64,000 bases of DNA from Moorella thermoacetica (GTDB lineage: Bacteria > Bacillota > DSM-521 > Neomoorellales > Neomoorellaceae): assembly GCF_001267405.1 (NCBI RefSeq), contig NZ_CP012369.1, positions 1,452,001 through 1,516,000 on the forward strand. The letters run 5' to 3'. Positions 44,126-62,918 of this stretch are shown piece after piece. The notes beneath the pieces are model-generated. The model ran no database searches. It was given only the letters and a program-made list of their open reading frames with translations, and was not told the DNA's origin. The position numbers and the translations under genes were made by a program. The number at the start of each line of letters is the position of its first letter. Within the stretch, counting starts at the first letter, position 1.

Positions 44126-44149
44126 ATGTATCCATCCTTTCTCAAGCTT

Positions 44150-45037: not shown

Positions 45038-45052
45038 CTGCCATCCTACCAT

Positions 45053-45156
45053 CCTTTATTGAAGTTCGCCTCGCACCCGGGTTGTTACTCCCGGGCCGGG
45101 GAAGTCCTTATTTTGCCGTGGGGGCACACGCAGGGGTATGGTGCCCCCGGTTATGC
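45053..45156. other. Intergenic region with two hairpins
   Basis: Between yqeG and aroE lie a CCCGGG...CCCGGG hairpin near 45076-45095 and GGGGGCAC...GTGCCCCC near 45119-45148. Neither has a clear U-run in the direction of transcription, so they are RNA hairpins of unknown role rather than proven terminators. Confidence 0.4.
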
Positions 45157-45678: not shown

Positions 45679-45753
45679 TGTTCACCCCAATTACAGGAAC
45701 TTAAAGGTTATTATACCATAAAAAGCAGGTCACCTGCGCCTGCCGGGTAAAAA

Positions 45754-46527: not shown

Positions 46528-46595
46528 ACCCTGTGCACCCTTCCCTTCTAGTGGGTCTAACCTTCGTAAAACAAGGAGCTTTTATCCCCAGGCTA

Positions 46596-48236
46596 TTATA
46601 CAGCTAAAATCGTCAGATGGATAATTCCTTCAGTAACTTTTGGATGGCCTTTTTTTCGATGTGTGCAAGTTAAAACACTACTTGAAAGTGGTTCTTTTAA
46701 GTTTTTCTGTGTGGTTAATGTTGTAGGTTCTTCGCAATGATCCGAAACATTTTTACCCGGCCCGGTAAAGGGGATGTTAAAGTACCCTTCTATCTCCAGG
46801 CTGCCGTCAGCATATATTTTTACCCTCTGCACTAGCTCGCGGGTGATATTCTGCTTTTGAAAAAAGTTTAGTTCATCCACCGACCTTGCCAGGTTTTCAG
46901 CGTACTGGCGCAGGAATTCTACGCCTTTTTGCACTTGTTCCTGGGCGTTAATTACGGCTTCAAGCCTCTTGATATCTTCTTCTATTCTTACTAGCTCTCC
47001 TTCTTGTTCCGCCCGGTAACGCTTGTAGTCTTCTTCGGGCAACGCCTCCAGGATAAAATAGGCCCGGTCAATCCGCTCGATCACCCGTTGCACCTGCTCT
47101 AGCCTCTTCCGCGCTTCCTCCAGGCGCCTCCGGGGAATGCTGGCTGTTTCAAGCTTTTCGCTGGTAATATACTGGTAGAAAAGCTCCGGGTTCTTAATTA
47201 TGGAAGCTATAGTATCCCATACTGTCTTATCTATTTCTTCCGTCCGCCAGGGTGGGAGCCCGCATCTGCCTACCCGGCCCTGGTCGTCAAACTTGGTAGG
47301 GTAACGCCCGGGACAGGTATAATAGCTATACTTCGCCCTCTGGGGATTGTTATGGGTGACGACTGTAAGCCTCCGCCCGCACTCCCCGCATACCAGCAAC
47401 CGCTGCAACAGGAATCTTCTCCTGGTAGTCTTAGGGTTGAAACGCTTGGACCTGGCAAGCATCTCCTGGGCTCTCATAAAGGTTTCCTGGTCAATTATGG
47501 CCGGCACAAGGACCGGTTTCCAATCAGGCTGCTCATCCTTGCGCCTCAACCGGCCTGTATATACGGGATTTTTCAGCATCCGTACCACCGAAGAGTGGAC
47601 CCACCCCTTGCCCCTGGGACCCTGGGGATACACCTGGCCCAGCTTCTGGGTAATCTGCCAGGGAGTTAAGGGTTCCAGGGGATCCGTTAGCCACTCAAAC
47701 ATCTGCTTGACGATTGCGGCTTCCTGGGGATTAATTACCAGGGTATCCCTCTCGGCGTCCCAGTCGTAACCAAAAGGCTTGGCGTAGCAGCGGATCTTGC
47801 CGCTGGCCGCTTTTTTGGCCTTGCCCCTCTGGGTACGCTCCTTGATGAGCGCATGCTCGAATTCGGCAAAGGCCCCCCGCATCTGCAAGAAGAGCATCCC
47901 CTGGGGCGTCTTTTGCCAGTCAAAATTAACAAACTCCAGCCTTACTCCTGCCTTATCAAATTCCCGGCAAAGGATGAGCAAATCTGTAAGGTTGCGGGAA
48001 AGCCTGTCGGGGTCATATACAACTACAAGGTCCACTTTCCCGGCAGCTACGAGCTGCCTCACATAATCCAGGCTAGGGCGGTTCAATTCCGTCCCGGTGT
48101 AAGCGTCTTCAACAACTTCGACTTCTAAAGCCCCTAAAGCCCTGGCCTTCTTCTCGCAGAGTTCTTTCTGGGTGGCCAGGGAAAAACCGAGAGCCTGGTC
48201 CTGGGTGCTTACCCTAGCATATATCACGGCTTTCAT
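46596..48236 (-). CDS. Large serine recombinase (resolvase/integrase)
   Basis: A 546-residue site-specific recombinase. The N-terminal catalytic domain starts MKAVIYARVSTQDQ with nucleophile Ser10. It is followed by a recombinase domain, a zinc-ribbon (CGECGRRL near 310, with C near 345) and a coiled-coil region (370-470) typical of large serine integrases. Such enzymes integrate phages, ICEs or the sigK skin element. It sits at the end of an accessory island, next to a conserved housekeeping gene. Attachment sites could not be identified by eye. Confidence 0.9.
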   Translation of the reverse strand: MKAVIYARVSTQDQALGFSLATQKELCEKKARALGALEVEVVEDAYTGTELNRPSLDYVRQLVAAGKVDLVVVYDPDRLSRNLTDLLILCREFDKAGVRLEFVNFDWQKTPQGMLFLQMRGAFAEFEHALIKERTQRGKAKKAASGKIRCYAKPFGYDWDAERDTLVINPQEAAIVKQMFEWLTDPLEPLTPWQITQKLGQVYPQGPRGKGWVHSSVVRMLKNPVYTGRLRRKDEQPDWKPVLVPAIIDQETFMRAQEMLARSKRFNPKTTRRRFLLQRLLVCGECGRRLTVVTHNNPQRAKYSYYTCPGRYPTKFDDQGRVGRCGLPPWRTEEIDKTVWDTIASIIKNPELFYQYITSEKLETASIPRRRLEEARKRLEQVQRVIERIDRAYFILEALPEEDYKRYRAEQEGELVRIEEDIKRLEAVINAQEQVQKGVEFLRQYAENLARSVDELNFFQKQNITRELVQRVKIYADGSLEIEGYFNIPFTGPGKNVSDHCEEPTTLTTQKNLKEPLSSSVLTCTHRKKGHPKVTEGIIHLTILAV

Positions 48237-48417
48237 CTTTCTTCTTCCCCGTAGCAGGATTCATGTTTATTTCCTTCAACATCTCTTGCGGGTTTTCCTG
48301 CCTGTCAGGGCAGGCCTGGCGTATAATATCAACTACCCGGGCGTAGGCCCTTTTGTGATCGGAAACATTTCCCACAGGAATAACCCTTATCCTGGGTACA
48401 GGCCGCCCCATTTGCAT
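48214..48417 (-). CDS. Small protein overlapping the recombinase, possible recombination directionality partner
   Basis: A 67-residue basic protein that overlaps the recombinase by 23 bp. I start at the ATG at 48415-48417 (MQMGRPVPRIRV), which has GGGGGAG five bases upstream, instead of 48573, which precedes a terminator-like hairpin. It shows a PVGNVSDHKRAYARVVDIIRQ helix. No family was recognised. Its tight coupling to the recombinase suggests a helper role, which is inferred only. Confidence 0.6.
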   Translation of the reverse strand: MQMGRPVPRIRVIPVGNVSDHKRAYARVVDIIRQACPDRQENPQEMLKEINMNPATGKKKDESRDIC

Positions 48418-48494
48418 AAGCTCTCCCCCTTTCCCTATTCCTTTCCTTATGAAAATATGCGCGACTGCTTGTTCGCCCGGCATGTCCTGAAAAA

Positions 48495-48523
48495 CAAAAA
48501 ACCGGGTATAACCCGGTTTTTTA
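48495..48523. terminator. Intrinsic terminator, symmetric
   Basis: ACCGGGT-ATA-ACCCGGT (48501-48517) is flanked by an A-run and a T-run, so it can act on either strand. It lies just upstream of the small protein and next to the left end of the IS remnant. Confidence 0.7.
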
Positions 48524-48524
48524 T

Positions 48525-48961
48525 CCCACATTCCGCACTTTTGGATATAATTACCAACGTTTTCTTGGGGCACTAAAAAATACTTCTACCTGCCACCGCG
48601 AGGTGGAAAAAGATATATTTCCTTACTGAAGCCAGCAAGTTCAAGGGCTCTAATCACCTCCGGCCCCTGATAGTAGTTGCTCACTATTTCTTCATCAACT
48701 GTGCCCTTTAGGATGAAAGGTTGGTGGCGGTATTCTTGGTAGAAGAGTTCTAGGGCTTTTTTGGCGTCGGCCTCACAGGCGAAGGGACGGCGGGAAAGAT
48801 CTTTGGCGGCCTTTTCCAGAACTTCTCTTTGCTTGGCCCACTTTTTCAAGAGACTATTCTCTTTGCGCTTATCCAGGGTTGTGGAGTGGACCACGATTAA
48901 CCGGTAATCGCGCACCCTATAAAAATTATTTTTGGGTTCCTCACAGGGTGCGGAATATGGG
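48525..48961. mobile_element. Internally deleted insertion sequence with 14-bp terminal inverted repeats (IS1634-like)
   Basis: The left end CCCACATTCCGCAC (48525-48538) and right end GTGCGGAATATGGG (48948-48961) are inverted repeats matching at 13 of 14 positions. Between them lies only a ~110-residue transposase C-terminus. The full IS should be about 1.6-2 kb, so most is gone. No clear target duplication was found. This is a non-autonomous derivative. Confidence 0.6.
48586..48915 (-). pseudogene. IS1634-family transposase, C-terminal fragment
   Basis: Encodes ~109 residues (MRDYRLIVVHSTTLDKRKEN, then KDLSRRPFACEADAKKALELF) resembling the DDE-transposase C-terminal part of the IS1634 family, in which long proteins of over 500 aa are usual. 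The N-terminal catalytic part is missing. It lies within matching inverted repeats. Family call is from memory of conserved text, so moderate confidence. Confidence 0.55.
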
Positions 48962-48963
48962 TT

Positions 48964-49350
48964 TTAAGATATACCCGCCAAATATGCGGACACCTCGTCG
49001 ATTAAAGACCGGACAGCTTTTCTCGCATCCGCAGCTTCTTGAAGGCTGAAACTCTTAAAGTCGTCATAATCAGCCTCGGAACGCATGGCAAAAATCGTAG
49101 ACAGGGTTTTACTCGCTTCTTTACTTATTACTCCAGTTTTCACATATTCACGGTTAAACAATGAAATAACGCCGCTATGTTTGGCTGAATCTAGCTTTTT
49201 AAGGGCCAGTAATGCCCTCACAGCATGAAATGCTGCATAATAAAAGCGGTTAATAGCACCATTGTAAAATCCCACATCTAATAGCTGTTCTCCTTCTTTG
49301 AAGGTCCTCTCGGCTTTTTCCAGCCGCCACCGGCATAAATCTATACTCAC
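48964..49350 (-). CDS. HEPN-domain protein (toxin partner)
   Basis: A 128-residue helical protein with the HEPN pattern: RLEKAERTFKEGEQLL, then NGAINRFYYAAFHAVRALL, and a C-terminal helix. HEPN proteins are RNases or RNase-like partners of minimal nucleotidyltransferases. It overlaps its MNT partner by 4 bp. The classical RxxxxH motif is not seen in standard form, so activity is uncertain. Confidence 0.82.
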   Translation of the reverse strand: MSIDLCRWRLEKAERTFKEGEQLLDVGFYNGAINRFYYAAFHAVRALLALKKLDSAKHSGVISLFNREYVKTGVISKEASKTLSTIFAMRSEADYDDFKSFSLQEAADARKAVRSLIDEVSAYLAGIS

Positions 49351-49682
49351 AGAGGTATCCCCTCTTCCTGGATGGACTTATAAAAAAAAGTCTCCTGGAA
49401 TAGTGGACCTGAATAACGCGCCGCTGACATGATTATTGGTGAGATTACAACGTCATACTTTAAATTTATATCTACTGCTGCTTCGATTACTATTTCCCTG
49501 GTAAGCTTATCCTCGTTTTTTACAACGACAAGAATATCAATATCCGACTCAGGTGTAGCAGTACCCCGGGCTACCGAACCAAACAGGCGAGTTGCTAGAA
49601 GTTTTCCACCCAACTGTTGCTTCAAGAGCTCGCAAAACTCTTTGATAGCCTTATCTATCCTGCTGGATATAATCTTCCTCAT
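49347..49682 (-). CDS. Minimal nucleotidyltransferase (MNT), HEPN partner
   Basis: A 111-residue NT fold. The catalytic signature is LFGSVARGTATPESDIDILVV. In HEPN/MNT pairs the MNT adenylylates or AMPylates the HEPN toxin to neutralise it. I start at the ATG at 49680-49682 (MRKIIS) with GAGGATGG upstream; other ATGs are within 30 nt. Operon of two genes. Confidence 0.82.
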   Translation of the reverse strand: MRKIISSRIDKAIKEFCELLKQQLGGKLLATRLFGSVARGTATPESDIDILVVVKNEDKLTREIVIEAAVDINLKYDVVISPIIMSAARYSGPLFQETFFYKSIQEEGIPL

Positions 49683-49774
49683 GGTCACCATCCTCTTTTG
49701 CACCATAGGCATACAGCTTTTACCATCGTGAATCTTCCCTCCCCTTCAATGGAGGGAGAATTCACTTACCCCGG

Positions 49775-50077
49775 TTACAACTGGTACTCTATTGTTTCCG
49801 GTTGGGTCAAGATATGGCGGATAAAGTTTCCTTCCCGTTTCATTAAACCTTCTACTTCTTCGGGTGTATAGGCTAAAGGTTCTACCGGCTCCATAATGCG
49901 GGCAACAGCTTTACCAAGGACCTCACACCTGCGCCAGGCCGGCATTTTAGAAAAATCACTGGAGATTACTATAAGGTCTATGTCGCTGTTCTCGTTGGCC
50001 TCACCCCTTGCATGAGACCCATAAAGGAAAGCTCTGTCTACTTTAATGCCTTGCGAGGTTACCGCCCGGAGGAGTGT
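49775..50077 (-). pseudogene. Minimal nucleotidyltransferase, N-terminally damaged
   Basis: Frame from 50077 reads VTSQGIKVDRAFLYGSHARG and then ENSDIDLIVIS, a clear MNT, and ends IRHILTQPETIEYQL at 49775. No ATG, GTG or TTG codon lies in this frame upstream of the NT core before a stop at 50078-50080. It may be expressed by frameshift from the HEPN gene that overlaps it, or be a dead copy. Confidence 0.65.
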
Positions 50078-50328
50078 TCAAGATTGGAATGAATTCTTTT
50101 TTATCATCGCCCAGGTTAACCTGGGCTAATTTGGCTAGCCTGATAAGGTCGTGAATTTTAGGTGGGATGGTTCCTGTACGCTCCGCTATAACTGCTTTAA
50201 GTCCTTTTTCTATTGCTAGATGGCACATGAATACAGTATAGCCATACCTGCCGGCTTTTGTGCATAGCTTCGGCAGTTTCCAGGTCGTATTCGGCCTCTT
50301 TAAGCCATTCTCCTGCCTCCGGGCACAT
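50043..50328 (-). pseudogene. HEPN-domain gene with a frameshift
   Basis: The start reads MCPEAGEWLKEAEYDLETA in one frame up to about 50259. The rest (GRYGYTVFMCHLAIEKGLKA, then KIHDLIRLAKLAQVNLGD) is in a second frame. The switch lies at a TTTT/AAAA run (50256-50259); one base fewer restores a complete HEPN protein of about 95 aa. Overlaps the damaged MNT. Natural pseudogene, sequencing error or slippage are all possible. Confidence 0.7.
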
Positions 50329-50382
50329 ACAGCTTTTTCCACCTTTCAAATACATAGTACCATATAGTGTCAGAAAAAGCAA

Positions 50383-50861
50383 TCAAATGACCCTTATATC
50401 TAATCCGGCCACCAGGGCGTCATCTATCCCTTTTTCTTCTTTCGACTTGGCTCTCCATATCGTATCCCGTACCGTTATGCCCAATTTCTTTAATTCTGCC
50501 ACCAGCATTCTTTTACCCCTGGCCACTTCTTTATTTGTTTCCTTGTCCCTGTCGTAGGCGATAACTACTTCTTTTGCCCCCAGTTCCATCACCACCGGGA
50601 CCACCGGTTTCCAGGAGGTGGCGCCCTGGGCGCCGACTACCTCTGCAGCTGCATGAGGGTGAGCGAGGGAGCCTTTAAACACATTACCCTCAGCAACGGC
50701 CAGTTGGCCCACCTGCACCAGCTGCAACCGGGCAGGGTAATCCCTGACAAGGAACGGCTGTTAAACCCGCACCAGTCCGTTTTGCCGCAAACAGGGCAGG
50801 GCTCGCGCCGTGAAGCTTTTCTAAAACCCTCATACTCTAGCTCTACCCTGGCCGCTCCCAT
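50383..50861 (-). pseudogene. DUF3854/toprim primase-like gene, frameshifted and truncated
   Basis: One frame (50637-50861) holds MGAARVELEYEGFRKASRR and the zinc-finger CPVCGKTDWC. A second (50383-50727) holds VVIAYDRDKETNKEVARGK, then KKLGITVRDTIWR and GIDDALVAG, typical of the DUF3854 domain in plasmid- or phage-encoded primases. The join lies near 50755. The predicted whole is ~160 aa, far shorter than normal. A replicon remnant. Confidence 0.6.
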
Positions 50862-50888
50862 TTCTCTTCTCCTCCTTTGCTTACGGCT

Positions 50889-51050
50889 TTATCTGTCAAC
50901 CCTTCTGGCTTTAAGGGAGGTAACGCCGCACCAATAGTCTGACGGCTTGATGCCCCACTTCTTGCAGGCGAGGCGTTTCGCCTGGCTGGAATCCTTGGCT
51001 TCCACAACCAGTTTTCTCCCGCTCGGCGCCTTGACTTCGTACTGTGGCAT
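50889..51050 (-). CDS. 53-residue small protein
   Basis: Starts at the ATG at 51048-51050 with GGAGG nine bases upstream and stops at 50889. The sequence begins MPQYEVKAPSGRKLVVEA and ends VTSLKARRVDR. It is basic with two cysteines. No family was recognised. A good ribosome site supports translation. It lies between two decayed replication genes. Confidence 0.6.
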   Translation of the reverse strand: MPQYEVKAPSGRKLVVEAKDSSQAKRLACKKWGIKPSDYWCGVTSLKARRVDR

Positions 51051-51137
51051 TAGTTGCTGCCTCCTTTTTTGTGCCCTGCCTCCCGGGCGGCAGGCTGTTT
51101 ACCCGGGAGGCAGGGCTATAATCCGGCTCGCTATTCC

Positions 51138-51675
51138 TTATGCCGCCCTATCCGCCGTCATGCCGGCTGCCTCGAAGATGCGACTTAACACTTCCTCCAC
51201 TTCCCCCAGGACCGCCATAATCGCCTTCAGGGCCATCCTTGGCTCCTGGCCGGCGTAATGCTTGATGTACTCCCACCCGTGCCAGAGGTATCCTTGCGCC
51301 CCGTAGAGCTCGCATAAAACGCAGGCCACCGTTTCCGCAACTATCTCCTGGTCCCGGTGCTGGCCGCCATGCTTGAAAGGGATCATGCAGGTAATATATG
51401 TTCGTCTGGTTTAACCCCCGCCGCTTCCAGCTTACTAAACCGGCGGTCCTAAGTTCTTTCAGGTATTTCTCTATTGTGTTCCTATGGCAGCCGGCAATCT
51501 GGGCCAACCGCTCATGCCCTGGCCAGCACTCATTTTCTTGCCAGGCAAAGGATAAAAGAATGATATAAAGCCATCGCGCCCCTATTGAGAGGGAAGAATC
51601 GTATAAAACTGCATTGGGCGCCGAAGTAAAGCCCTTCTTGAGTACGGGACTGTCGATTATTAGGGTCTTTTCCAA
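51138..51675 (-). pseudogene. Fused remnants: HTH replication-type N-terminus and ArdC-like C-terminus
   Basis: The frame from 51675 reads MEKTLIIDSPVLKKGFTSAP, then a HTH_36-type helix-turn-helix (WPGHERLAQIAGCHRNTIEKY cut short). Past ~51385 this frame becomes low-complexity, while another frame (51138-51386) reads HRDQEIVAETVACVLCELYG, resembling the C-terminal part of ArdC-type zinc peptidases. A deletion has probably joined two genes out of frame. The HTH part might still be expressed. Confidence 0.55.
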
Positions 51676-51703
51676 AGTGCCCCCTCCTTTTCCGCTGCCT
51701 GCA

Positions 51704-51735
51704 ATAAAAAAGCCGGTGGTTTTTAGACCACCGGC
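51704..51735 (-). terminator. Terminator of the YgiT/DUF4258 operon
   Basis: On the minus strand GCCGGTGGT-CTAAAA-ACCACCGGC (51712-51735) is followed by TTTTTTATT. A strong intrinsic terminator just downstream of the antitoxin stop. Confidence 0.9.
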
Positions 51736-51753
51736 AAGGAGAAGGTTACTTTC

Positions 51754-52008
51754 TTAAGCTTGGGCAATATGGCGGAATGGCAATACCGGCACATTAATTT
51801 GCTTAATTGGTTTGATATCCGAATCCAATAGAACATCTATATCCTTGGAAGTCCTGGCGGAAATTAATTGTTCACCGCAGTCTTTACAAACCTGGGCCGG
51901 TACTCCTTCTATCACGATTAATCGGCCTTTATAACGAAAATCAAGCTGGATTAGTTTCTCTTCTAGCGTTCCCCCGCATACTGGGCAAATACTTTGGTCG
52001 TTCTTCAT
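51754..52008 (-). CDS. YgiT-type zinc-finger antitoxin-like protein
   Basis: An 84-residue protein. CPVCGG near the N-terminus and CKDCGEQ near residue 45 form a zinc site, as in the N-terminal part of MqsA. The C-terminus LDSDIKPIKQINVPV is short, and the helix-turn-helix of MqsA is absent. I start at the ATG at 52006-52008 with AGGAG upstream. It overlaps nothing, but follows the DUF4258 gene by 5 bp. Probably the antitoxin of the pair. Confidence 0.8.
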   Translation of the reverse strand: MKNDQSICPVCGGTLEEKLIQLDFRYKGRLIVIEGVPAQVCKDCGEQLISARTSKDIDVLLDSDIKPIKQINVPVLPFRHIAQA

Positions 52009-52013
52009 GGCGG

Positions 52014-52319
52014 TTACTCCTTTCGCCTGACTTTGTAATCTATCCACTTTTTCTCATCCGGAAGGTAGAGGGTGATAATATCGCTTATGGGCGCCAAACT
52101 GCAAACTACATGTAACGGCAGCCCGGAAAGTGTGTGACCGTAAATAAGGTAACTTGGAAAAGGTTTATCGTTGGGATATTCTTCGATAATTTCTCCATTC
52201 AATATAGCGGCTTCCATATCGCCAGTTGTAATTCCCCGCTCCTTGGAACGAATTGCAGCATGGACTGTTAAACGGTATTGCCCCTTTCTTATTTTGTCCC
52301 GGATTTTCTCTATATCCAA
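52014..52319 (-). CDS. DUF4258-domain protein, probable toxin
   Basis: A 101-residue protein. RLTVHAAIRSKERGITTGDM and EIIEEYPNDKPFPSYLIYG match DUF4258, a BECR-fold RNase relative usually next to YgiT/MqsA-type proteins. It likely cleaves RNA, which is inferred. Typical gene order, toxin first. Confidence 0.78.
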   Translation of the reverse strand: MDIEKIRDKIRKGQYRLTVHAAIRSKERGITTGDMEAAILNGEIIEEYPNDKPFPSYLIYGHTLSGLPLHVVCSLAPISDIITLYLPDEKKWIDYKVRRKE

Positions 52320-52340
52320 GGTTTTCTCCTCCGTTATAAG

Positions 52341-52754
52341 TTATAGTACCATACGTAATTGACGGAAACAATCTATGTAACCCACAATCTCTCTCCACGA
52401 GGTAAAAGCCTTAATTCCGCGCCCTTTAGTATTCAGGTTATAAGGCCACGCCGGAACTAATACCCTTCCAACCGCCTTTTGTAATTGAAGCACCTCTGCC
52501 GGGTCATCCTCAAAAACCAGGTCAATACTGTAATAAAGCGCAAAAAACTTTTTGTGTCCCCTGGGCAGGAAAACAATAGAACCGCGCGGGAAGCCATGGG
52601 CAGCAAGCCATGCCCGGGTTAAATCGATTGCCAGGACGGGCCTGCTTGTCAAATACACGATTTCATGCCCCAACTTCGCAAGAATATCCAGTTCTGATAC
52701 CTGTATGTGCACCGGTACAAACGGGTTCTTCTCCCCCACCTCTGGCCACCACAT
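52341..52754 (-). CDS. HAD-like protein lacking motif I (truncated?)
   Basis: A 137-residue protein. HEIVYLTSRPVL is HAD motif II and DLVFEDDPAEV is motif IV, as in 5'-nucleotidase-type HADs. No DxD motif I is found before residue 30, so catalysis is doubtful or the true start lies upstream. It begins 4 bp inside the end of the previous gene region and is in the same direction. It could be a truncated copy. Confidence 0.6.
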   Translation of the reverse strand: MWWPEVGEKNPFVPVHIQVSELDILAKLGHEIVYLTSRPVLAIDLTRAWLAAHGFPRGSIVFLPRGHKKFFALYYSIDLVFEDDPAEVLQLQKAVGRVLVPAWPYNLNTKGRGIKAFTSWREIVGYIDCFRQLRMVL

Positions 52755-52757
52755 CTC

Positions 52758-53015
52758 CTAAAAATCAAAAACCCCCGCCAGGGTTTCCCGGAATTCGATA
52801 GGGTCAATTTTCTTCCCTTCCCCATTGCCAGCGCCTGAAGTAGGAGGAATAGACCCCCGCTCTTCCAGCTTGGCCAGCCTTTCTTCTATGGCCGCCAGGC
52901 GCATCCCCAGGTCCAACCATTCCCGAGCAACTTTCGGCCTTATACGGGGCGGGTACCGAAATACGGGATGTTCTGACGGCAACCGCAAATCAAGGCGCTT
53001 CAAGGTTTCAGGCAC
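52758..53015 (-). CDS. Small coiled-coil hypothetical protein
   Basis: An 85-residue protein. The middle (MRLAAIEERLAKLEERG) forms a short coiled coil; the N-terminus is basic and proline-rich, and the end reads IEFRETLAGVFDF. Start supported by GAGGTG seven bases upstream of the ATG. No family recognised. Possibly an accessory-element protein. Confidence 0.6.
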   Translation of the reverse strand: MPETLKRLDLRLPSEHPVFRYPPRIRPKVAREWLDLGMRLAAIEERLAKLEERGSIPPTSGAGNGEGKKIDPIEFRETLAGVFDF

Positions 53016-53101
53016 ATTTTTTCACCTCGTTTGCCGCAAATAACTTATATTACACCCTATAAACCCCACCGTTGCGGCAAAATCTCTTAAAAAACAATTC
53101 T

Positions 53102-53716
53102 TTAGTTGAATAAAGTCCACAGAGGCGTAAAATTGTACCGTCCGTCATTGATCGTCACGACCCAGCTGGTGCCGCTGTCCCCCATGTCGAGGGGGTTGGT
53201 CGGCGATGCGCTGGTGGTGTTCGGTACGGCTTTGAACCACGTCCCGTAGACGTTATGGTAAAAGATGTTCCTCACGGCGGTGCTGCCCTGCTTGGCTCCG
53301 GCGTCCGTGACGTTATAGTACCCGTCAGTTGCAGGCCACTCCAGGGCCTCCAGCCAGGTGCTCAAGTCCTGCGGGATCGCCGCAGGATGCAGGAAGCCGT
53401 ACCCTTTCTCTATGTTGAGGCTGCCCGTGGACCAGTCTATGGGCGCGAAGAGCAGGTCCGGCGCGAAGCGGCTCTCCGGGGGCATATTGACAAATTGGGT
53501 ATCGCTGGGCAGGTTATTCTGGCTAAACTGCCCTATCTCGAAGGGGTTCACCAGGTAGAACTGGAAGAATGCCCCCTCGGTATAGGCGTATTTTAGGCCG
53601 TAGGGGCCTTGCGTCGCAGTCGCAAAGGCGCCGGCCTCCCGCGGCAAAGAAAGCACCAGCGCCATTACCAGGGCGAGAGAAAGAAAAGAGGAGAGAAAAC
53701 CTCTCCTTCCGTACAT
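53102..53716 (-). CDS. Secreted protein of unknown function
   Basis: A 204-residue protein from the ATG at 53716 (MYGRRGFLSSFLSLALVMAL), with a clear signal peptide cut after GAFA-type residues around 31-34. The mature part is rich in aromatic and Asn/Thr residues (FQFYLVNPFEIGQFSQNN; NIFYHNVYGTWFKAV) and has no cysteine or recognised domain. It has a good ribosome site (GGGAGGTGAG) but separated from the ATG by a perfect hairpin. It follows the stalk-domain gene. Confidence 0.65.
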   Translation of the reverse strand: MYGRRGFLSSFLSLALVMALVLSLPREAGAFATATQGPYGLKYAYTEGAFFQFYLVNPFEIGQFSQNNLPSDTQFVNMPPESRFAPDLLFAPIDWSTGSLNIEKGYGFLHPAAIPQDLSTWLEALEWPATDGYYNVTDAGAKQGSTAVRNIFYHNVYGTWFKAVPNTTSASPTNPLDMGDSGTSWVVTINDGRYNFTPLWTLFN

Positions 53717-53723
53717 AGCCGCC

Positions 53724-53748
53724 GGCCCCGGCATAGACTGCCGGGGCC
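53724..53748. other. 10-bp perfect hairpin upstream of the secreted-protein start
   Basis: GGCCCCGGCA-TAGAC-TGCCGGGGCC is a perfect stem between the GGAGG and the ATG at 53716. If folded, the ribosome site lies ~12 nt from the ATG across the hairpin, a normal spacing. If unfolded, it is ~37 nt away. It could control initiation, or be a remnant terminator without a U-run. Confidence 0.45.
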
Positions 53749-53776
53749 GCTCACCTCCCGTATAAATTTAGATTTG

Positions 53777-54274
53777 TTACTTCTGCGGCAGATAAATGCC
53801 CACTATCTTATCGGGACCATCATCATAACCAACCTCGTACCCGAACGTCTCGGCCACGAACCTGGCTGGCAGGAACACACGGTCGTCTCTCATCAGCGGG
53901 GCCACGTCCATTTCCTGGGGCTTGCCGTTGACATAGAGGGTCTTGCTGCCCACCTGGAGCTCCAACGTGGTGCCATCCATGCTTAAAGCAACGGTCTGGC
54001 TTGCCTCATCCCAATTTACGTCCTTCTCCGCCACACCCAGGCCGTAGGCCAGGTAGCGCACGGGCACATAGGCACGGTCGTTCTCGATGAAGGGTGCCAC
54101 ATCCATCTTGCAATTTACAGATTTGGTTGTGTCTTCTGGAGTTGTATATCCAAAAACGTTGTAACCTATCGTAAAATCAACGTTTAAATTCTTCGCTTCC
54201 GCCACGCCCCCGGCCGCCAGGGCCAGCGTCACGGCCAGGAGGAAAGCAATGAGAAGGTTAATTTTACGGGGCAT
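53777..54274 (-). CDS. Secreted stalk-domain (copper amine oxidase N-type) protein
   Basis: A 165-residue protein with a signal peptide (MPRKINLLIAFLLAVTLALA, cut near 28). Two repeats of the stalk domain follow: DVAPFIENDRAYVPVRYLAYGLG and DVAPLMRDDRVFLPARFVAETFG. These domains form beta structures at the surface of clostridia. Start at 54274 with GGAGG eight bases upstream, not 54358. No catalytic domain is attached. Confidence 0.85.
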   Translation of the reverse strand: MPRKINLLIAFLLAVTLALAAGGVAEAKNLNVDFTIGYNVFGYTTPEDTTKSVNCKMDVAPFIENDRAYVPVRYLAYGLGVAEKDVNWDEASQTVALSMDGTTLELQVGSKTLYVNGKPQEMDVAPLMRDDRVFLPARFVAETFGYEVGYDDGPDKIVGIYLPQK

Positions 54275-54329
54275 GGTATCAGCCTCCATTACTTTGGTAG
54301 GAATCAAAAAGCACCGGCGTACCGGTACT

Positions 54330-54728
54330 TTATTCGCTTCGCAAAGCCTTGGAAACATTATTGTATATAGCTTCTGCTATCTCAATTGCTCTTTGGGCAT
54401 CTTCCCTGGTTGCTCCTGCTGCGTCTCCAGGATAACGGCCTTCAGTAACCCATCCGCTTAGCCATTCCAATCTTGTGTTATAAAATTTCTCTTGATCCTC
54501 CGGTGGTAATAACCCCACCAGGTAATCAAGGTCATGTTTATAAGCGAACCTTATCCCAAGGCGGATTAAGAGGGCTTTCAAACTTTTTTCGGCACATTGC
54601 TGTGATAAGTAACAAGCCAGATCAAATTCCGGTTCTTTATCATAAAAAAGCATCTTCGCCACCCGCAGGTCCCTTCTCGCCCTATCCTGCCATTTCAAGG
54701 CTTCTTGTTCCCTCTCCCTACTGTTCAT
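54330..54728 (-). CDS. HEPN-domain protein, second pair
   Basis: A 132-residue HEPN protein. WQDRARRDLRVAKMLFYD and ACYLSQQCAEKSLKALLIRLG are typical. It overlaps the MNT gene by 11 bp. Here MNT precedes HEPN, as in the first pair. Start at 54728 (MNSREREQEALKWQ). Not closely similar to the first pair's HEPN, so it is a separate type. Confidence 0.83.
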   Translation of the reverse strand: MNSREREQEALKWQDRARRDLRVAKMLFYDKEPEFDLACYLSQQCAEKSLKALLIRLGIRFAYKHDLDYLVGLLPPEDQEKFYNTRLEWLSGWVTEGRYPGDAAGATREDAQRAIEIAEAIYNNVSKALRSE

Positions 54729-55032
54729 AAAGAACCTTCCCTTCTTCAAGGGCAGGATGGTAAACGGTCCACCAGGCATCTTTATACTTGTTTATGTCCT
54801 CCGGGCTAGCAATTACAATATCTTTAGGAACCTTAAACTCCCGTAGTTCCTTCCTGATGGCTGCCTGTATCTCCCGCTTTTGTTCCCGCGTGCAGTCCAT
54901 GATAACTAGGATGTCAACATCGCTATCCGGCCCAGCTTCACCCCTCGCCCAGGAGCCAAAAACTATTATTTTTTCGGGATTAAACTTTTCCTGTATACGT
55001 TTGACCATAGAATAAACTATTTTGTTATTCAT
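54718..55032 (-). CDS. Minimal nucleotidyltransferase, second pair
   Basis: A 104-residue MNT with the signature IIVFGSWARGEAGPDSDVDILVI and a C-terminal KDAWWTVYHPALEEGKVLY. It should regulate the adjacent HEPN protein by nucleotide transfer. The ATG at 55032 is preceded by a GGGAGGGAC ribosome site. Confidence 0.85.
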   Translation of the reverse strand: MNNKIVYSMVKRIQEKFNPEKIIVFGSWARGEAGPDSDVDILVIMDCTREQKREIQAAIRKELREFKVPKDIVIASPEDINKYKDAWWTVYHPALEEGKVLYEQ

Positions 55033-55435
55033 GAATGGTCCCTCCCGGGCCAGGAGTATTGAAGGTGTGCCATTTTATCACCTTCCTGCCACCATTTTAC
55101 CCCAGGATTGCCAATTTATCAATATGGCTAACCACTCACCACCCTGATCTCATATCCCTTCACCCTTTGCCACCCCTCCTTCCGTTAGGCCTTCAGCCCC
55201 GGCCTCCCGGCCTTAGCTGCCAAACTTGCCGCCCGGCCGTGAGGCAAGGGCGGCCCGCAGGGTCGGGCCGAGGAATAAATGGAGGGGACCCGCCCGGAAG
55301 GCAGGGCGGAGGCCGTTTATGCCGCAGGCCGTACCCTTGCCGGACCGGCCAGGGCGTCGGTATAATCTGAGGCCGGCAGGAAGGCCGTTTTTATTACTCT
55401 TTTTTGCTTTATTTCAATGAAGCCGCAACCATAAT
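55033..55435. other. GC-rich non-coding stretch with many hairpins
   Basis: Between the MNT gene and the truncated gene lie ~400 bp. From 55180 to 55380 it is very GC-rich with nested inverted repeats, e.g. GCCGCC...GGCGGC near 55228-55256 and CGCCC...GGGCG near 55291-55308. ORFs here look like composition artefacts. It may be a structured RNA or a remnant of a transfer origin. No match could be assigned. Confidence 0.4.
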
Positions 55436-55460
55436 AAAAGGGCCGGATTTCCCCGGCCCT
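55432..55460 (-). terminator. Terminator after the truncated gene
   Basis: On the minus strand GGGCCGG-GGAAAT-CCGGCCC (55440-55459) is followed by TTTTATTAT. It ends transcription of the gene truncated by the IS110 fragment. Confidence 0.8.
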
Positions 55461-55495
55461 CTCTCTCAATGCCCCGCATTGTTTTTCTTCCGGTC

Positions 55496-55785
55496 TCACT
55501 TTTTCTGCCCCTGCTCCGGATCCGCCTGGCTGGTATCGGAGGAAGGCTGGCCGCCAGGCAAGGCGCTGACCTGTACCTGCTGCACCTGCTCCCCCGGCCG
55601 TGCTTCCCGGTGCAGGGCAAGAGCCTGGCCGTCTTTCACCAGGGCGTTAATGGTATCGCCGGCTTTAAAATATTTCGTGAGGTCTGCTTTTTGTCCCGGC
55701 TTGTCCACAAAATTCATCCCCACCTGGATAGAGGTATACTCGTTGGTGGCCAGGGTTATGGTCTGGCCGATATCCCCGCCGCGCA
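55496..55785 (-). pseudogene. C-terminal fragment of a secreted/stalk-like protein cut by the IS110 fragment
   Basis: The open frame runs from the junction at 55785 (LRGGDIGQTITLATNEYTS) through NFVDKPGQKADLTKYF to a Gln/Ser/Asp-rich C-terminus ending PEQGQKK at 55496. It has a terminator but no start. The junction with the IS110 transposase fragment is at about 55785. The N-terminal part is missing, perhaps by deletion. Confidence 0.6.
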
Positions 55786-56064
55786 GGCCTTACCTGGACC
55801 CGTTACCAGTCGGGCGATTTCGATGCCGAAGAACGTCGTTTAACTAAAAGCGGCAACCGCTACCTGCGCTATTACCTAGTCCAAGCTGCCAATTCGTTGC
55901 GGGTGCACAACGAAGAGTATAAGGCCTATTACCAGACTAAATATCGCGAGGTTACTAAGCACCAGCATAAACGAGCGCTGGTCTTGACTGCCCGTAAACT
56001 AGTAAGACTGGTCTTTGCGCTGATGAGTAAAGGCCAAATCTATAAGGGGATGGTGATGGGTTAA
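55786..56064 (+). pseudogene. IS110-family transposase, C-terminal 92 residues
   Basis: The frame reads GLTWTRYQSGDFDAEERRL, then KSGNRYLRYYLVQAANSLR, HQHKRALVLTARKLVRLVFAL and a final KGMVMG stop at 56062-56064. This is the transposase IS116/IS110/IS902 C-terminal domain. It lacks the N-terminal RuvC-like half and any start codon. The 3' non-coding end of the IS should lie just beyond, at 56065-56290. It sits on the plus strand against the island genes. Confidence 0.85.
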
Positions 56065-56195
56065 TCTTGTAACTGCAATTAACCTCTTTTTTTCAGTTAT
56101 TTCCTTATAGCTGGCTATGGAGCCGGATTGCATGAACAACCAAAAACTTTTGTGGATTGAAGTATAATCCCCCACCAACCGGCGTTCATCTACCA

Positions 56196-56225
56196 CCCTT
56201 GAAGCTGTTGCAGCAGCTTCAAGGG
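56196..56225. other. 12-bp stem hairpin downstream of the IS110 fragment
   Basis: CCCTTGAAGCTG...CAGCTTCAAGGG is a perfect 12-bp stem. On the plus strand TTTTC follows, a weak terminator. On the minus strand it lies ~70 nt after the kinase stop. It may mark the end of the IS or end the signalling operon. Confidence 0.5.
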
Positions 56226-56294
56226 TTTTCAATTACTTCCGCAGCATGGTGATAGCCACCATGAGGGTCAGAAGAGACAGCAGAGTTCCGATGA

Positions 56295-57128
56295 TCAGTT
56301 TCCATACTCCATAGGAATTTTTGGCAATCTGACCGTAAATACTGTCATTATATCATCATCACGTGAATCAAAGGAAATAGTTCCACCGCATTCCCTCACC
56401 AGATTTTTAACAATAAATAAACCCATCCCCGATCCTTCCTGTCCCTTGGTTGTAAATCCCGGTTCAAAAATCCTTTCTCGGATCTCAGGTGCAATAGTAC
56501 CCGGGTTTGTTATTTCAAAAATAAACCACTCATCTTCCTGATCGATTCTCATCTTAATCCATTTATCTTTATAGAAGCTCGTCTCGTAAATAGCATTATC
56601 AAGCAAATTGCCAAGAATACTTACCAGCTTATCTGGAGAGATAGACAACTCGGCCAAAGAAGTATTCACATCTAACGACGCCTGCAAATAACTCAGACTT
56701 GCCAGCTTGCTGCTAATAAGGGCGGCAACTTCCGGCCTTTTTAAGGAAACAAGTTTTTCAATTTGAATTAGATCTTTTGATAGACTTTTAATATAATCGG
56801 CAGCATCATTATCCATCTTCAATTGAATAAGTCCCAGGATTACCTGTAAATGGTTCACAAAATCATGATGTTTAGACCTCAAGGTGGTAATTAATTTTTC
56901 GGCTTCCTCTAACCTTACCATTACTTTCTCGGCTTCACTTTCCCTTTCAACCAGTCTAAGCATCTCCCGGACCACCCATAAACTTGAAATCATCACAGCA
57001 ATAATAGCAAACAAAACAATAGTAACGGGTATTCTGAAGCTCGTAAAAACATAATTGTAAGCCAATAAGAGGAACAAAAAAAGCTGTAACAAAAGAAGGT
57101 TTACAAAAAGCAACCATCTTTTTTCCAT
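56295..57128 (-). CDS. SpoOB/GHKL-type sensor histidine kinase (AgrC-like)
   Basis: A 277-residue kinase. Two membrane helices (about 7-27 and 35-52), a coiled coil, then a phospho-acceptor helix KHHDFVNHLQVILGLIQLK (His near 90-91) of SpoOB_a type and a GHKL ATP-binding domain with ILGNLLDNAIYE, GMGLFIVKNLV. In agr systems this protein senses the autoinducer through its membrane part, but here the membrane part is small and a separate membrane protein precedes it. No response regulator is adjacent. Nearly AT-rich relative to neighbours. Confidence 0.85.
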   Translation of the reverse strand: MEKRWLLFVNLLLLQLFLFLLLAYNYVFTSFRIPVTIVLFAIIAVMISSLWVVREMLRLVERESEAEKVMVRLEEAEKLITTLRSKHHDFVNHLQVILGLIQLKMDNDAADYIKSLSKDLIQIEKLVSLKRPEVAALISSKLASLSYLQASLDVNTSLAELSISPDKLVSILGNLLDNAIYETSFYKDKWIKMRIDQEDEWFIFEITNPGTIAPEIRERIFEPGFTTKGQEGSGMGLFIVKNLVRECGGTISFDSRDDDIMTVFTVRLPKIPMEYGN

Positions 57129-57137
57129 GAATAATCC

Positions 57138-57626
57138 CTACTTATGTATCTCCTGCGATCTAGTTAAGGTAAACCCAAACACTTTATTAATAATCAACAT
57201 TAATGCCAAAAACACAATTTCTGTATATCCCATTAATACGTGCAACCAGGGGTTACTCAAAACATTGGTAACATCCAATTGAAAATACTGTATTATGACT
57301 ATAGACATACCCCCACCTAGCATGACTAAGCTGAAGCTCACTAATGCAGCTCCCAATGCAGTGCCCCAATTTACCTTGCCTATCATTTTAATTAAGAAAG
57401 ATAAAATTACCGTTAAGATAAGGGAATGACTACCAAGAGGAATATGGTAATATTGGTATACTCCCCGAATTATCCATATGGAAGCCCCATAAGTTATACT
57501 AATAGCTGCAAGAATCTTTACATTAGTTTTATAACCAAATAATCGCAAGCCTGTCATGGTCATTAGAAATCCCTCTACAATATATAGAAAAAAAACAGGA
57601 CGCGAAGGTCCTCCAAAACAGCCCAT
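57138..57626 (-). CDS. Polytopic membrane protein, possible split sensor part of AgrC
   Basis: A 162-residue protein with about five hydrophobic helices (residues ~10-28, 34-52, 63-83, 90-110, 125-148). No enzymatic motif. It lies between agrD and the kinase, 9 bp upstream of the latter, so one transcript is likely. AgrC normally has five to seven helices fused to the kinase. This may supply the missing part. A start at 57563 (MTMTGLRLFG) with GAGGG upstream is an alternative. Confidence 0.65.
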   Translation of the reverse strand: MGCFGGPSRPVFFLYIVEGFLMTMTGLRLFGYKTNVKILAAISITYGASIWIIRGVYQYYHIPLGSHSLILTVILSFLIKMIGKVNWGTALGAALVSFSLVMLGGGMSIVIIQYFQLDVTNVLSNPWLHVLMGYTEIVFLALMLIINKVFGFTLTRSQEIHK

Positions 57627-57645
57627 CCTCTCTATTTTTAAATTT

Positions 57646-57768
57646 CTATTTCAATAACTTGGCAGGGACTTCGGGCTGGTAGCCCCAGGGTCCAGAGGCT
57701 GCAGCAACATTAGCAAAGGCAAAGATGGTAAACAACGTGGCTACCATAATAATCATAATGCGTTTCAT
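57646..57768 (-). CDS. agrD: AgrD-like cyclic lactone autoinducer precursor (40 aa)
   Basis: A 40-residue peptide starting at 57768 with AGGAGGGG in the agrB end. The N-terminal hydrophobic helix is MKRIMIIMVATLFTIFAF; the middle holds SGPWGY; the C-terminus is QPEVPAKLLK, the conserved AgrD leader sequence (acidic, Pro-rich). The ring residue that is Cys in most AgrDs is Ser25 here, so a lactone rather than thiolactone ring is predicted. Two bases separate it from agrB. Function by analogy. Confidence 0.8.
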   Translation of the reverse strand: MKRIMIIMVATLFTIFAFANVAAASGPWGYQPEVPAKLLK

Positions 57769-57770
57769 TA

Positions 57771-58400
57771 CTATCCCCTCCTTTCCATAGAAAATTTAAA
57801 CAAACTGTCCATACCTCCTACTATCTTAAAACCGATGGGTGTAAGGGTAAATAGCTGCCATGCCATACCAAAACAGCTTGCTAGAACCGTCTTGGTTTCG
57901 AAAAATTCACCTGGTGAACTTAATCCCCAAAAACTTATGCCACTCCAAAGACTTAACAAAGAAAAGGAAATGGCTCTCAAGTATTTTCTTTGCACTTGCG
58001 AGGAAACCGGCTTTCCAGGGGTTTCTGCAGGAACATATCGGTATATGACGTATATACCAATAATAGCTATAATAATCGGGAGATAAATCAGCGACTGAAC
58101 ATATGGAAATAAATTTGATATAAATCCAAGGGTTAAAAAAACGCCCACTCCAATTAAATTACATCTTAATGGAGAAGAAGCATGGGCACCGCCAGAAAAA
58201 ATCCTGAATATAGAAGCAGTAATAGCTGCTGCTAAGGCATATGGGAGTATACCCAACAATGAAGCGAGAATTATTAAGGCGACATAACCGGAAGCGCTTG
58301 TAAAAAATAAGCGCATTCCAAACAAAATTACCTCAGCATCTCGTCCGGACTCATTGGCTAAATAAAATGCCACTCTGTCCAAAAACTTACTGTTACTCAT
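57771..58400 (-). CDS. agrB: Accessory gene regulator B (AgrB) peptidase
   Basis: A 209-residue membrane cysteine peptidase that cuts the AgrD precursor and helps form the ring. The catalytic pair is in GGAHASSPLRC (His73 and Cys80). Several hydrophobic helices, about 5-6, follow. It begins with MSNSKFLDRVAFYLANES, typical of the family. First gene of the operon with agrD, the membrane protein and the kinase. Confidence 0.88.
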   Translation of the reverse strand: MSNSKFLDRVAFYLANESGRDAEVILFGMRLFFTSASGYVALIILASLLGILPYALAAAITASIFRIFSGGAHASSPLRCNLIGVGVFLTLGFISNLFPYVQSLIYLPIIIAIIGIYVIYRYVPAETPGKPVSSQVQRKYLRAISFSLLSLWSGISFWGLSSPGEFFETKTVLASCFGMAWQLFTLTPIGFKIVGGMDSLFKFSMERRG

Positions 58401-58528
58401 AATAAGAATTATTTCGACGTAATTTACCTAATTCCTGCCTTTTTCTTTAAAAACTTTCATAACAAACGCCGCCTGGCCGTCTCTATGGTCGCCCCCTGCA
58501 AAAATAAAAAATCCGGCGTAAAGCGGAT

Positions 58529-58565
58529 TAAAAAAGAAAAACCCGTCCGGCTTGCAAGAACGGGT
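58529..58565 (-). terminator. Terminator after the coiled-coil gene
   Basis: On the minus strand ACCCGT...ACGGGT (58541-58565) is followed by TTTTTCTTTTTT. A second small stem, AATCCG...CGGATT, follows at 58511-58530. Confidence 0.75.
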
Positions 58566-59060
58566 TCACTTCGGAGCCGTATAATATATTGCTACAACAA
58601 TACCTGCTGCGCCAACCAGCACCGCAAAAAATGTTCCTATCGCCGCCCAGATGACGTTATTTAACTTCCCGTCAATATGCCTTATATCATCCTTCAATTC
58701 CTGCCGTAGAGTATCTATTTCTTGCTTTATCTCTTGCCGCACGCCATTTATTTCCTGCTTCATCTCCTGGCGCAGGCTATTATTTTCCTGCTTCATCTCT
58801 TGCCGCAGGCCGTTAACCTCCTGCTTCATCTCCTGGTGCAGGCCGTTAACCTCTTGCTTAATCTCCTGGCGCAGATCCTCTTTTACTTCCATCATTTGCT
58901 GCTGGAGATCGCTTATCTGCTTTTGGAGATCGCTTTTGATGCTCCCTATCCTGTCCAGGAGAAGGTAAAAACCGAAGTCCACGGTTTTTTCTTCCCCCGC
59001 GGAAACCTCTTTCCTGCCTTTTTCAATTTCCTTTATGATATCTTCCGGCACGACCGCCAC
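58566..59060 (-). CDS. Coiled-coil protein with 11-residue repeats and a C-terminal membrane helix
   Basis: A 164-residue protein. Residues ~63-128 are six near-perfect 11-residue repeats of the form LRQEMKQEVNG, encoded by 33-bp tandem DNA repeats (58677-58874). The N-terminus is acidic, and a membrane helix (about 137-160) is near the C-terminus. Hendecad repeats form right-handed or straight coiled coils. Cellular role unknown. It may anchor something at the membrane. Confidence 0.72.
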   Translation of the reverse strand: MAVVPEDIIKEIEKGRKEVSAGEEKTVDFGFYLLLDRIGSIKSDLQKQISDLQQQMMEVKEDLRQEIKQEVNGLHQEMKQEVNGLRQEMKQENNSLRQEMKQEINGVRQEIKQEIDTLRQELKDDIRHIDGKLNNVIWAAIGTFFAVLVGAAGIVVAIYYTAPK

Positions 59061-59123
59061 CCCTCTTTCCCCTCCCTTGCCAATATTTTACCGCAATCAT
59101 AAAAAACCGTCCAGTTAAAAAAT

Positions 59124-59148
59124 ATAGCGCGGCCAAGACCGCGCCAAC
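59124..59148 (-). terminator. Terminator after sigK
   Basis: On the minus strand GCGCGG...CCGCGC (59127-59144) is followed by TATATTTTTT. Well placed for sigK. Confidence 0.75.
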
Positions 59149-59187
59149 AGGCAAACCTATTGGGAAACTATTTGGTTTTTGCAGGTA

Positions 59188-59868
59188 TTAGGAAGTTGTA
59201 TGTATATGAGCAGGCTTCTCGATGCGGGAAACATAGGAACGGGAAATGCCCATCTTCCTGGCTATATCCCTCTGGGTGCGGCGTAAACCATGCCATAGCC
59301 CGTAACGCATCTCCAGAACCTTTCTCTCCCTAGGGGTGAGGGTGCTTATCTTTTGCCGCACTCTTTGCTGTTCGTAAGAAGATTCTACCATTTCGGCTAC
59401 GTCCTGTTCCGAGCCTAGAATGTCGATGAGGGCGATCTCATTGCCTTCGCGGTCAACGCCAATTGGGTCATAGAGGGAAATTTCTCCCCGTGTCTTTTTA
59501 AGGGTCCTTAAATGCATGAGGATCTCATTCTCTATGCAACGGGCTGCATAGGTGGCCAGTTTGGTGCCTTTAGCCTTATTATAAGTGTTAATAGCTTTTA
59601 TAAGCCCAACGGTGCCTATGGATATCAGATCTTCGGTATCCTCACCGGTGTTCTCAAATTTTTTGGTTATGTGGGCCACCAGGCGCAGGTTATGTTCAAT
59701 TAGAATATTACGGGCCTTTTGATCGCCCTGCAGCCAGAGTTCCAGGTATTTTTGCTCTTCTTCTTCAGACAGGGGCTGGGGAAAGGCATTATTGCTGATA
59801 TACGACAGTAGTAAACTAATGCCCTTTAAAACAGAAAGGGCAACCAGAGCAACAAAACCTGCTTCCAT
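59188..59868 (-). CDS. sigK: RNA polymerase sporulation sigma factor, sigma-K type
   Basis: A 226-residue sigma-70 family factor with a hydrophobic pro-sequence at the N-terminus (residues ~1-25, [17 protein letters not shown]), as expected for pro-sigma-K, removed by SpoIVFB. Region 2 is [21 protein letters not shown] with [14 protein letters not shown]; region 4 has [15 protein letters not shown] and [10 protein letters not shown]. The gene is contiguous, so no skin-type element interrupts it. It could also be sigma-E like, but the pro-sequence fits K. C-terminal tail PAHIHTTS is unusual. Confidence 0.85.
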
Positions 59869-60040
59869 ATTGTATACCCCCCGGGAAGGATGGCTTTACC
59901 CTTTATATATATGGAAGCTAGGTACAATTGGTGCTTGTCCAGGTTCCGCCTTAGCCCCTCCATTTATTTATAAAATCTGGAACATCTGCCTGTTAGGCAG
60001 AATAAGTTACAGTAAATCACCACCAGATGGAGGGATCTAT

Positions 60041-60175
60041 ATGGCTGAGGAAAAGAACCTTTTCGCTGCTAGAAAGGGGAGCCAGGAAAGCGGTCTGGGA
60101 TTTACGTTCCCTGGCGGGAGTTTTGCCTTTATTCTATTCTTGATTCTTATTCTCCTTTTCTTTGGTGACAATTAG
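60041..60175 (+). CDS. YjcZ-family sporulation protein, 44 residues
   Basis: Starts at ATG 60041 with GGAGGG upstream. It reads MAEEKNLFAARKGSQES, then a glycine-rich FTFPGGSFAF and the typical hydrophobic tail ILFLILILLFFGDN. Such tiny proteins are associated with spores of Bacilli and Clostridia. Function unknown. It is upstream of a second copy. Confidence 0.8.
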   Translation: MAEEKNLFAARKGSQESGLGFTFPGGSFAFILFLILILLFFGDN

Positions 60176-60277
60176 AACCGGCATCTACCTCCTGTAACCT
60201 TCCTGGGAAAAAGGCATATATTAAATACTGGGAAATGACACCTACTAAAGAAAGGTTTACCGGAAAGGGGGATTATT

Positions 60278-60364
60278 ATGGGTGGCTTTGGAGGACCTGG
60301 CTTCTTTGGCAACTGGGGCTTCATTCTCTTCTTGATCCTTATCCTGTTATTCTTTGGCAACTAA
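60278..60364 (+). CDS. YjcZ-family sporulation protein, 28 residues (first copy)
   Basis: Start at ATG 60278 after AAAGGGGG. Reads MGGFGGPGFFGNWGFILFLI and then LILLFFGN. A glycine-rich head and hydrophobic helix define the YjcZ pattern. Followed by a bidirectional terminator. Nearly identical in sequence to 63607-63693, from which it differs at a few residues. Confidence 0.85.
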   Translation: MGGFGGPGFFGNWGFILFLILILLFFGN

Positions 60365-60377
60365 TTCCATCTCCCAG

Positions 60378-60412
60378 GGGGCTACCGGTATGTTATACTG
60401 GTAGCCTTTCTA
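60378..60412. terminator. Bidirectional terminator
   Basis: GGCTACCGGTATGTTATACTG followed by GTAGCC forms a 12-bp stem with one GC mismatch (60380-60406), followed by TTTCTATTT on the plus strand. It ends the YjcZ gene and the CoxE-like gene. Confidence 0.75.
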
Positions 60413-60413
60413 T

Positions 60414-62611: not shown

Positions 62612-62717
62612 TAGTCATACCCCCTTTTACTGCTTACCTAATCAGGAGTTTTTTGTTATACTTTTATCATCCAGATTTATTCCTCAAATTAACTGCCAGG
62701 GAGAGGGGAGCAACCCC

Positions 62718-62918
62718 ATGGAAGAGTTACTCAAACAAATTTTAAACGAATTACATACATTAAACAATCGGGTTGGCAACCTGGAACCGGGTCAAGAGTC
62801 CATGAACGCCAGGCTCATTTAACACGAGTTGCGCTACGTCCGGGAAGATATCAGGCGTCTTAGCAACCGCCTGAGTACCCAGGAAGAGGAGATTGTCATG
62901 CTGAAGCGGTTGAAGTAA
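62718..62918 (+). pseudogene. Small coiled-coil gene with an in-frame stop codon
   Basis: From ATG 62718 the frame reads MEELLKQILNELHTLNNRVG to a TAA at 62820-62822, then continues HELRYVREDIRRLSNRLSTQ, EEEIVMLKRLK to a stop at 62918. The two parts form one 66-residue coiled coil if the stop were CAA (Gln). A natural nonsense mutation is likely. The purpose is unknown. Confidence 0.6.

Follow-up and report, generated by a model that had tools for sequence, protein, structure and literature searches.

The 64,000 nucleotides of the genome of the spore former Moorella thermoacetica that we analysed (NZ_CP012369.1, positions 1,452,001 to 1,516,000; hereafter the window) carry an agr-type operon, as cargo of an element inserted into the 3' end of sigK, a key gene of sporulation. 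Our reading is that the operon makes a peptide closed as a serine lactone, senses it through a receptor divided over two genes, signals to a distant regulator and exchanges its specificity genes between strains as a cassette. We give this model as a whole a probability of about 0.75. Four ORFs make up the operon, and all were found in the positions, order and strand that a first-pass annotation had given them:

57771..58400, minus strand: agrB, 209 aa, a membrane peptidase (cleaves and cyclises AgrD), matching PF04647 (E-value of 3.3e-36)
57646..57768, minus strand: agrD, a 40-aa propeptide, MKRIMIIMVATLFTIFAFANVAAASGPWGYQPEVPAKLLK, matching TIGR04223 (29.4 bits)
57138..57626, minus strand: MEM, 162 aa, a protein with five transmembrane (TM) segments (AlphaFold2)
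56295..57128, minus strand: HK, 277 aa, a kinase with SPOB_a and HATPase_c domains and two predicted TM segments

The operon is almost certainly an agr-type quorum-sensing system, as had been proposed, with AgrB and AgrD each scoring above the curated cut-off of its family profile. The agrD ORF starts two bases past the agrB stop. Searching its 40 residues against the AgrD family gave 29.4 bits with TIGR04223, above the cut-off of 19 bits, so this is an AgrD-family propeptide adjoining agrB rather than a chance ORF, a possibility that the profile match and the existence of orthologs together rule out. AgrB has the His and Cys catalytic pair of its peptidase family: H73 and C80, both named in the first-pass annotation, are unchanged in an alignment of 18 homologs, as are R66, G70 and G71. 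HK carries an HHDFVNH motif starting at residue 87, and its two domain matches agree with its earlier description as a SpoOB/GHKL-type kinase. The AlphaFold2 model of MEM consists of five long helices (mean pLDDT of 91.9), as expected for the five-helix membrane protein described before. Profile searches placed MEM in no Pfam or NCBIfam family, a PDB fold search was empty (best E-value of 0.63), a PDB sequence search gave no match, and MEM has no sequence resemblance to AgrC sensor domains. A promoter scan scored no better than shuffled sequence.

The window operon contains no AgrC that is a single polytopic protein; there are two ORFs, MEM and HK, and the operon is therefore not a canonical agrBDCA system. 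Several lines of evidence suggest that these ORFs are the two parts of one receptor. The NCBIfam model of staphylococcal AgrC aligns with its positions 140-394 to HK residues 6-245, the match starting only at AgrC position 140. MEM was found in 20 of the 22 genomes of the class. Other families have single ORFs of 448-473 aa beside agrB and agrD, in which an N-terminal MEM is followed by a C-terminal kinase. Four such fusions (448, 458, 471 and 473 aa) come from loci L154, L196 and L200, the last with two copies; a fifth, of 467 aa, in L183 has a MEM part that matches more weakly. A 441-aa frame with MEM in genome G020 was rejected as a further fusion, as the extra residues lie at its N-terminus and it includes no kinase. 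HK residues 51-269 align with residues 221-441 of the L154 fusion, so that MEM and HK together (439 aa) equal the fusion (448 aa). In a structure model of the fusion, the five helices of MEM recur ahead of TM6, TM7 and the kinase; the segment that links the two parts is modelled with low confidence. MEM is thus likely to form TM1-5, the signal-recognising half of a split AgrC, and HK would supply TM6-7 and the kinase. Compared with S. aureus agrBDCA, both systems have an AgrB peptidase, a SpoOB/GHKL kinase and an AgrD with a Pro-rich tail and a five-residue ring, which in the window is a prediction. Unlike in S. aureus, the window receptor is split into two genes, the ring residue is Ser instead of Cys, and no AgrA gene is adjacent.

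Further evidence on the receptor comes from orthologous operons. A search with MEM identified these in L057 (genome G016), L058 (G011) and L059 (G002), and a further ortholog, L199, belongs to another family of the same phylum. We compared three operons only (window, L058 and L057), in blocks of 20 codons. Between the window and L058, AgrB codons 1-80 are 93-98% identical and HK mostly 83-100%, while AgrB from codon 81 to its end, AgrD and MEM are mostly 53-80% identical. The pattern is reversed between L058 and L057, where most of the AgrB C-terminal part, AgrD and MEM are alike (MEM about 80-100%) and HK is 61-90% identical. Synonymous divergence follows: dS is 0.22 for HK and 1.61 for MEM between the window and L058, and 1.31 for HK and 0.30 for MEM between L058 and L057. 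The simplest reading is that recombination has exchanged a cassette that begins just past AgrB Cys80 and ends where MEM meets HK, and strong selection rather than recombination could have contributed to the pattern. In L057 (6820-8100) the orthologous operon has a transposase gene separating agrB from agrD. In S. aureus, the hypervariable region of agr spans agrB, agrD and agrC (PMC12312760). In functional terms the exchanged cassette covers what this staphylococcal region covers, from the C-terminal part of AgrB through AgrD to the sensor domain of the receptor. This agreement independently supports MEM as the recognising half. The natural fusions and the cassette exchange thus bear out the earlier suggestion of a sensor divided over two genes. 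Since the AgrB C-terminal part, AgrD and MEM appear to be exchanged together as a unit that sets specificity, the peptide that is made and sensed probably differs between strains.

MEM might instead be a separate accessory protein of agr operons, involved in leader processing, export or immunity, with HK sensing through its own two TM segments. This would fit the presence of MEM next to agrB in agr loci without a kinase, and the retention of MEM in L059, where the operon has no kinase. Against this, in-frame fusions in several families place TM1-5 before TM6-7 and the kinase, and the exchanged cassette unites MEM with the AgrB C-terminal part and AgrD, where a recognition part would be expected. 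We therefore regard a purely accessory MEM as improbable and retain the split receptor. Given the kinase-free loci, MEM may still have a role beyond serving HK.

The AgrD ring residue varies among these operons. The core is S-GPWG-YQP in the window, S-GSWG-YQP in L059, T-GPWS-YQP in L057 and L058, T-GFWS-YQP in L199 and C-AIFG-YQP in L150, an operon with the same gene order as that of the window. Operons of the window type thus use Ser (window, L059), Thr (L057, L058, L199) or Cys (L150) at one position, seven residues ahead of the proline in the Q/E-P motif. Classical AgrD peptides have Cys at that same distance. By alignment, this shared spacing makes the best prediction a ring from S25 through G, P and W to G29, with cleavage before Y30 and a tail from Y30 onwards. 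AgrB would then cut AgrD after Gly29, and an ester (lactone) bond formed by AgrB would close the ring of five residues, Ser25-Gly-Pro-Trp-Gly29. The ring is atypical in being rich in Gly and Pro. Ser, Thr and Cys all have nucleophilic side chains, and their variation supports a ring rather than weakening it. Provided that the peptide is made, we consider it likely that Ser closes the ring. The earlier assignment of Ser25 as the ring residue holds, since it aligns with the S, T or C of homologous AgrDs. As to whether Ser25 is conserved, Ser itself is not universal (Ser or Thr in the orthologs, Cys in a related operon), but each of these operons has a nucleophile there.

Serine rings had been described in the first-pass annotation as known in a few staphylococci, which is correct but understates their distribution. 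A wider sample of profile-ranked matches, not a random draw, included about 73 Cys, 47 Ser and 3 Thr peptides, counting duplicates and with the register of five peptides set by eye. Taking one agrD per locus with adequate flanks left 52 Cys, 38 Ser and 3 Thr (n = 93 loci). Peptides with a Ser ring are already known from S. pseudintermedius, C. difficile Agr2 and E. faecalis GBAP (PMC3673130, PMC12312760), and Ser is listed as the ring residue for the latter two species (PMC12312760). The S. pseudintermedius AIP (RIPT[STGFF]), C. difficile Agr2 (NSA[SSWVA]) and GBAP all have Ser at the ring position, as in the window, and the lactone has been demonstrated for the first and the last. Unlike these Ser-type peptides, some orthologs of the window operon use Thr, and our search of one literature library, with few subscription papers, found no agr peptide closed through Thr.

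The complete 2.53-Mb genome contains three agrB genes and five agrD genes above the cut-off, and all five peptides have Ser at the ring position. At the second agr locus, MEM, a kinase, a LytTR regulator, agrB and agrD lie in a row, with two more agrD genes downstream. At the third (L119:6016-8829), an IS3-type insertion sequence parts MEM from the kinase; the latter is 46 aa shorter than its L067 ortholog, and the insertion appears to have removed its start. These loci could be a source of crosstalk. Many loci elsewhere have MEM, AgrB and AgrD followed by a membrane GGDEF/HD-GYP protein, with no kinase, a layout that suggests coupling of peptide signalling to cyclic di-GMP. Within the class, nine of ten Cys loci have the GGDEF/HD-GYP protein without a kinase and 21 of 23 Ser/Thr loci have a kinase without this protein, although these loci are related by descent and hence are not independent; outside the class, Cys occurs with both output types. 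The GGDEF/HD-GYP layout is found in L070, L073, L107, L109, L111, L112, L113, L116, L117 and others, as well as in L161, L167, L188 and L201, for example, and its AgrD nearly always has Cys. A separate arrangement in L013 (5698-14438) has three near-identical agrD genes (TSWLAWYQPET or TSWMAWYQPET) over 9 kb with only one agrB, and small exported proteins encoded between the agrD copies.

Comparison with relatives without an insertion delimited the element that carries the operon:

46661..59214: the element, about 12.55 kb, in the 3' end of sigK, with the agr operon as cargo (junctions from comparison with L213)
59188..59868, minus strand: sigK with an altered C-terminus (Sigma70_r2 and r4), from comparison with element-free relatives
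46596..48236, minus strand: large serine recombinase, 546 aa, at the far end of the element
46600..46660, minus strand: displaced sigK 3' end at the far junction, matching the sigK end of L213

In L213, the closest relative, the regions corresponding to window positions 42963-46661 and 59215-62817 directly abut, with 93-96% identity, so 12.55 kb were inserted in the window or lost in L213. The sigK product ends in SRIEKKAIQKLLKELS in L213 and most relatives, and in the window 13 other residues stand in place of SRIEK-KAIQKLLKELSI. Both ends of the element share the junction core TT(C/T)TCGATG, and the end of the recombinase gene spans the far junction. This recombinase has Resolvase (6.5e-36), Recombinase (1.7e-14) and Zn_ribbon_recom (7.4e-13) domains. 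Altered sigK tails of the same kind occur in L225 (G011), L215 (G006) and L217 (G005). The sigK gene of G016 is in two pieces, one for residues 1-116 and one for residues 112-end; about 20 kb separate them, and this interval holds the orthologous agr operon together with a serine recombinase. We have little doubt that an element is inserted in sigK. The large serine recombinase would have integrated it, with the operon as cargo, into the sigK 3' end, and excision would restore the normal sigK tail; we see an even chance that it is excised during sporulation.

The skin elements of C. difficile and B. subtilis are a known parallel (PMC5025042). Like the window element, both B. subtilis skin and C. 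difficile skin-Cd (recombinase CD1231) are integrated in sigK and have a large serine recombinase. The G016 element breaks sigK mid-gene (around residues 112-116), as skin elements do. In contrast, the window break lies about 12 codons from the sigK stop, and the cargo includes an agr operon, unlike that of B. subtilis skin and skin-Cd. No report of agr within a sigK-intervening element turned up in the literature library that we searched, which has few subscription papers. Split sigK genes with serine recombinases nearby were also seen in G017 (L219 and L220, about 22 kb apart) and in G003 (L223 and L224, on two contigs). The window element additionally appears to encode several small HEPN/nucleotidyltransferase- and MqsRA-type toxin-antitoxin-like pairs (identified by eye) and a Cu_amine_oxidN1 domain protein (53777-54358). 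Between sigK and agrB, at 58566-59060, lies a gene for a 164-aa coiled-coil protein with a C-terminal hydrophobic segment, which is missing at that place in G011 and has a 66% relative in L116.

The ORF list of the window shows no response regulator beside the operon, as had been noted, and no AgrA (LytTR) gene within it. Spo0A had been suggested as the target of HK because sigK is next door. The agr operon adjoins sigK because the element integrated there, and this adjacency is silent on phosphotransfer, so it gives no evidence for Spo0A and we rejected that reading of it. Could the orphan kinase still pass the signal straight to Spo0A or sporulation? Clostridial agr peptides do affect sporulation, for example C. 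difficile AgrD1 (PMC10602386), and operons of the window type lie beside or within sigK in three genomes. Yet the element insertion accounts for this linkage, the kinase is AgrC-like, and related operons that include a regulator have one of the LytTR type. A direct route to Spo0A or sporulation is accordingly very unlikely. Three LytTR regulators are encoded in the genome, one of them inside another agr locus, and they are more ordinary candidate partners of HK. In our model HK would phosphorylate a response regulator from another locus, and one of the three LytTR proteins is the most likely. Orphan agr kinases are not unusual: AgrA is not adjacent in C. autoethanogenum (PMC8748961), and C. 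difficile RgaS and RgaR are encoded apart (PMC10602386).

The 5' end of MEM bears on whether the operon functions in this strain. In all four orthologs MEM begins at a common start codon, in frame with the rest of the gene, which is TTG in three and ATG in L199. Relative to them, the window has two additional nucleotides in a run of eight T at 57588-57595, the frame used by the orthologs closes after 13 codons, and the only open MEM frame starts at an ATG 10 nt upstream of the TTG. The listed ATG is thus a substitute for the conserved start, and the shift makes function in this strain uncertain. Genuine decay, slippage, phase variation or an error in sequencing could each account for the difference in the T-run, and this strain may have an inactive or phase-variable operon. 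The operon could be degenerate, with the shift breaking the receptor and leaving at most peptide production. The early closure of the conserved frame would be consistent with this, as would the position of the substitute ATG directly against its ribosome-binding site. Weighing against degeneration, MEM remains open for 162 codons from its in-frame ATG, AgrB, AgrD and HK are intact, and the difference lies in a run of eight T, in which slippage or a sequencing error may have occurred. Degeneration seems unlikely to us, and we lean towards an operon that is active in this strain.

In the model that we favour, the exported peptide would be recognised by a two-protein receptor in which MEM (TM1-5, recognition) and HK (TM6-7 and kinase) together act as one AgrC. 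Here AgrC is apparently divided exactly between its recognition and kinase parts and fused versions exist for comparison, so which part of AgrC reads the peptide becomes directly testable. The orthologs predict threonine-closed autoinducing peptides, a chemistry for which we found no report. The signalling system exchanges its specificity and lies on elements that interrupt sigK, which brings together two fields that have been studied separately. We raise as a speculation, doubtful at present, that sigK elements carry their own exchangeable quorum-sensing groups, made up of the AgrB C-terminal part, AgrD and the split receptor, with Ser- or Thr-lactone peptides, in which case the signals of neighbouring cells might influence sporulation or excision, and differing groups might interfere with one another.
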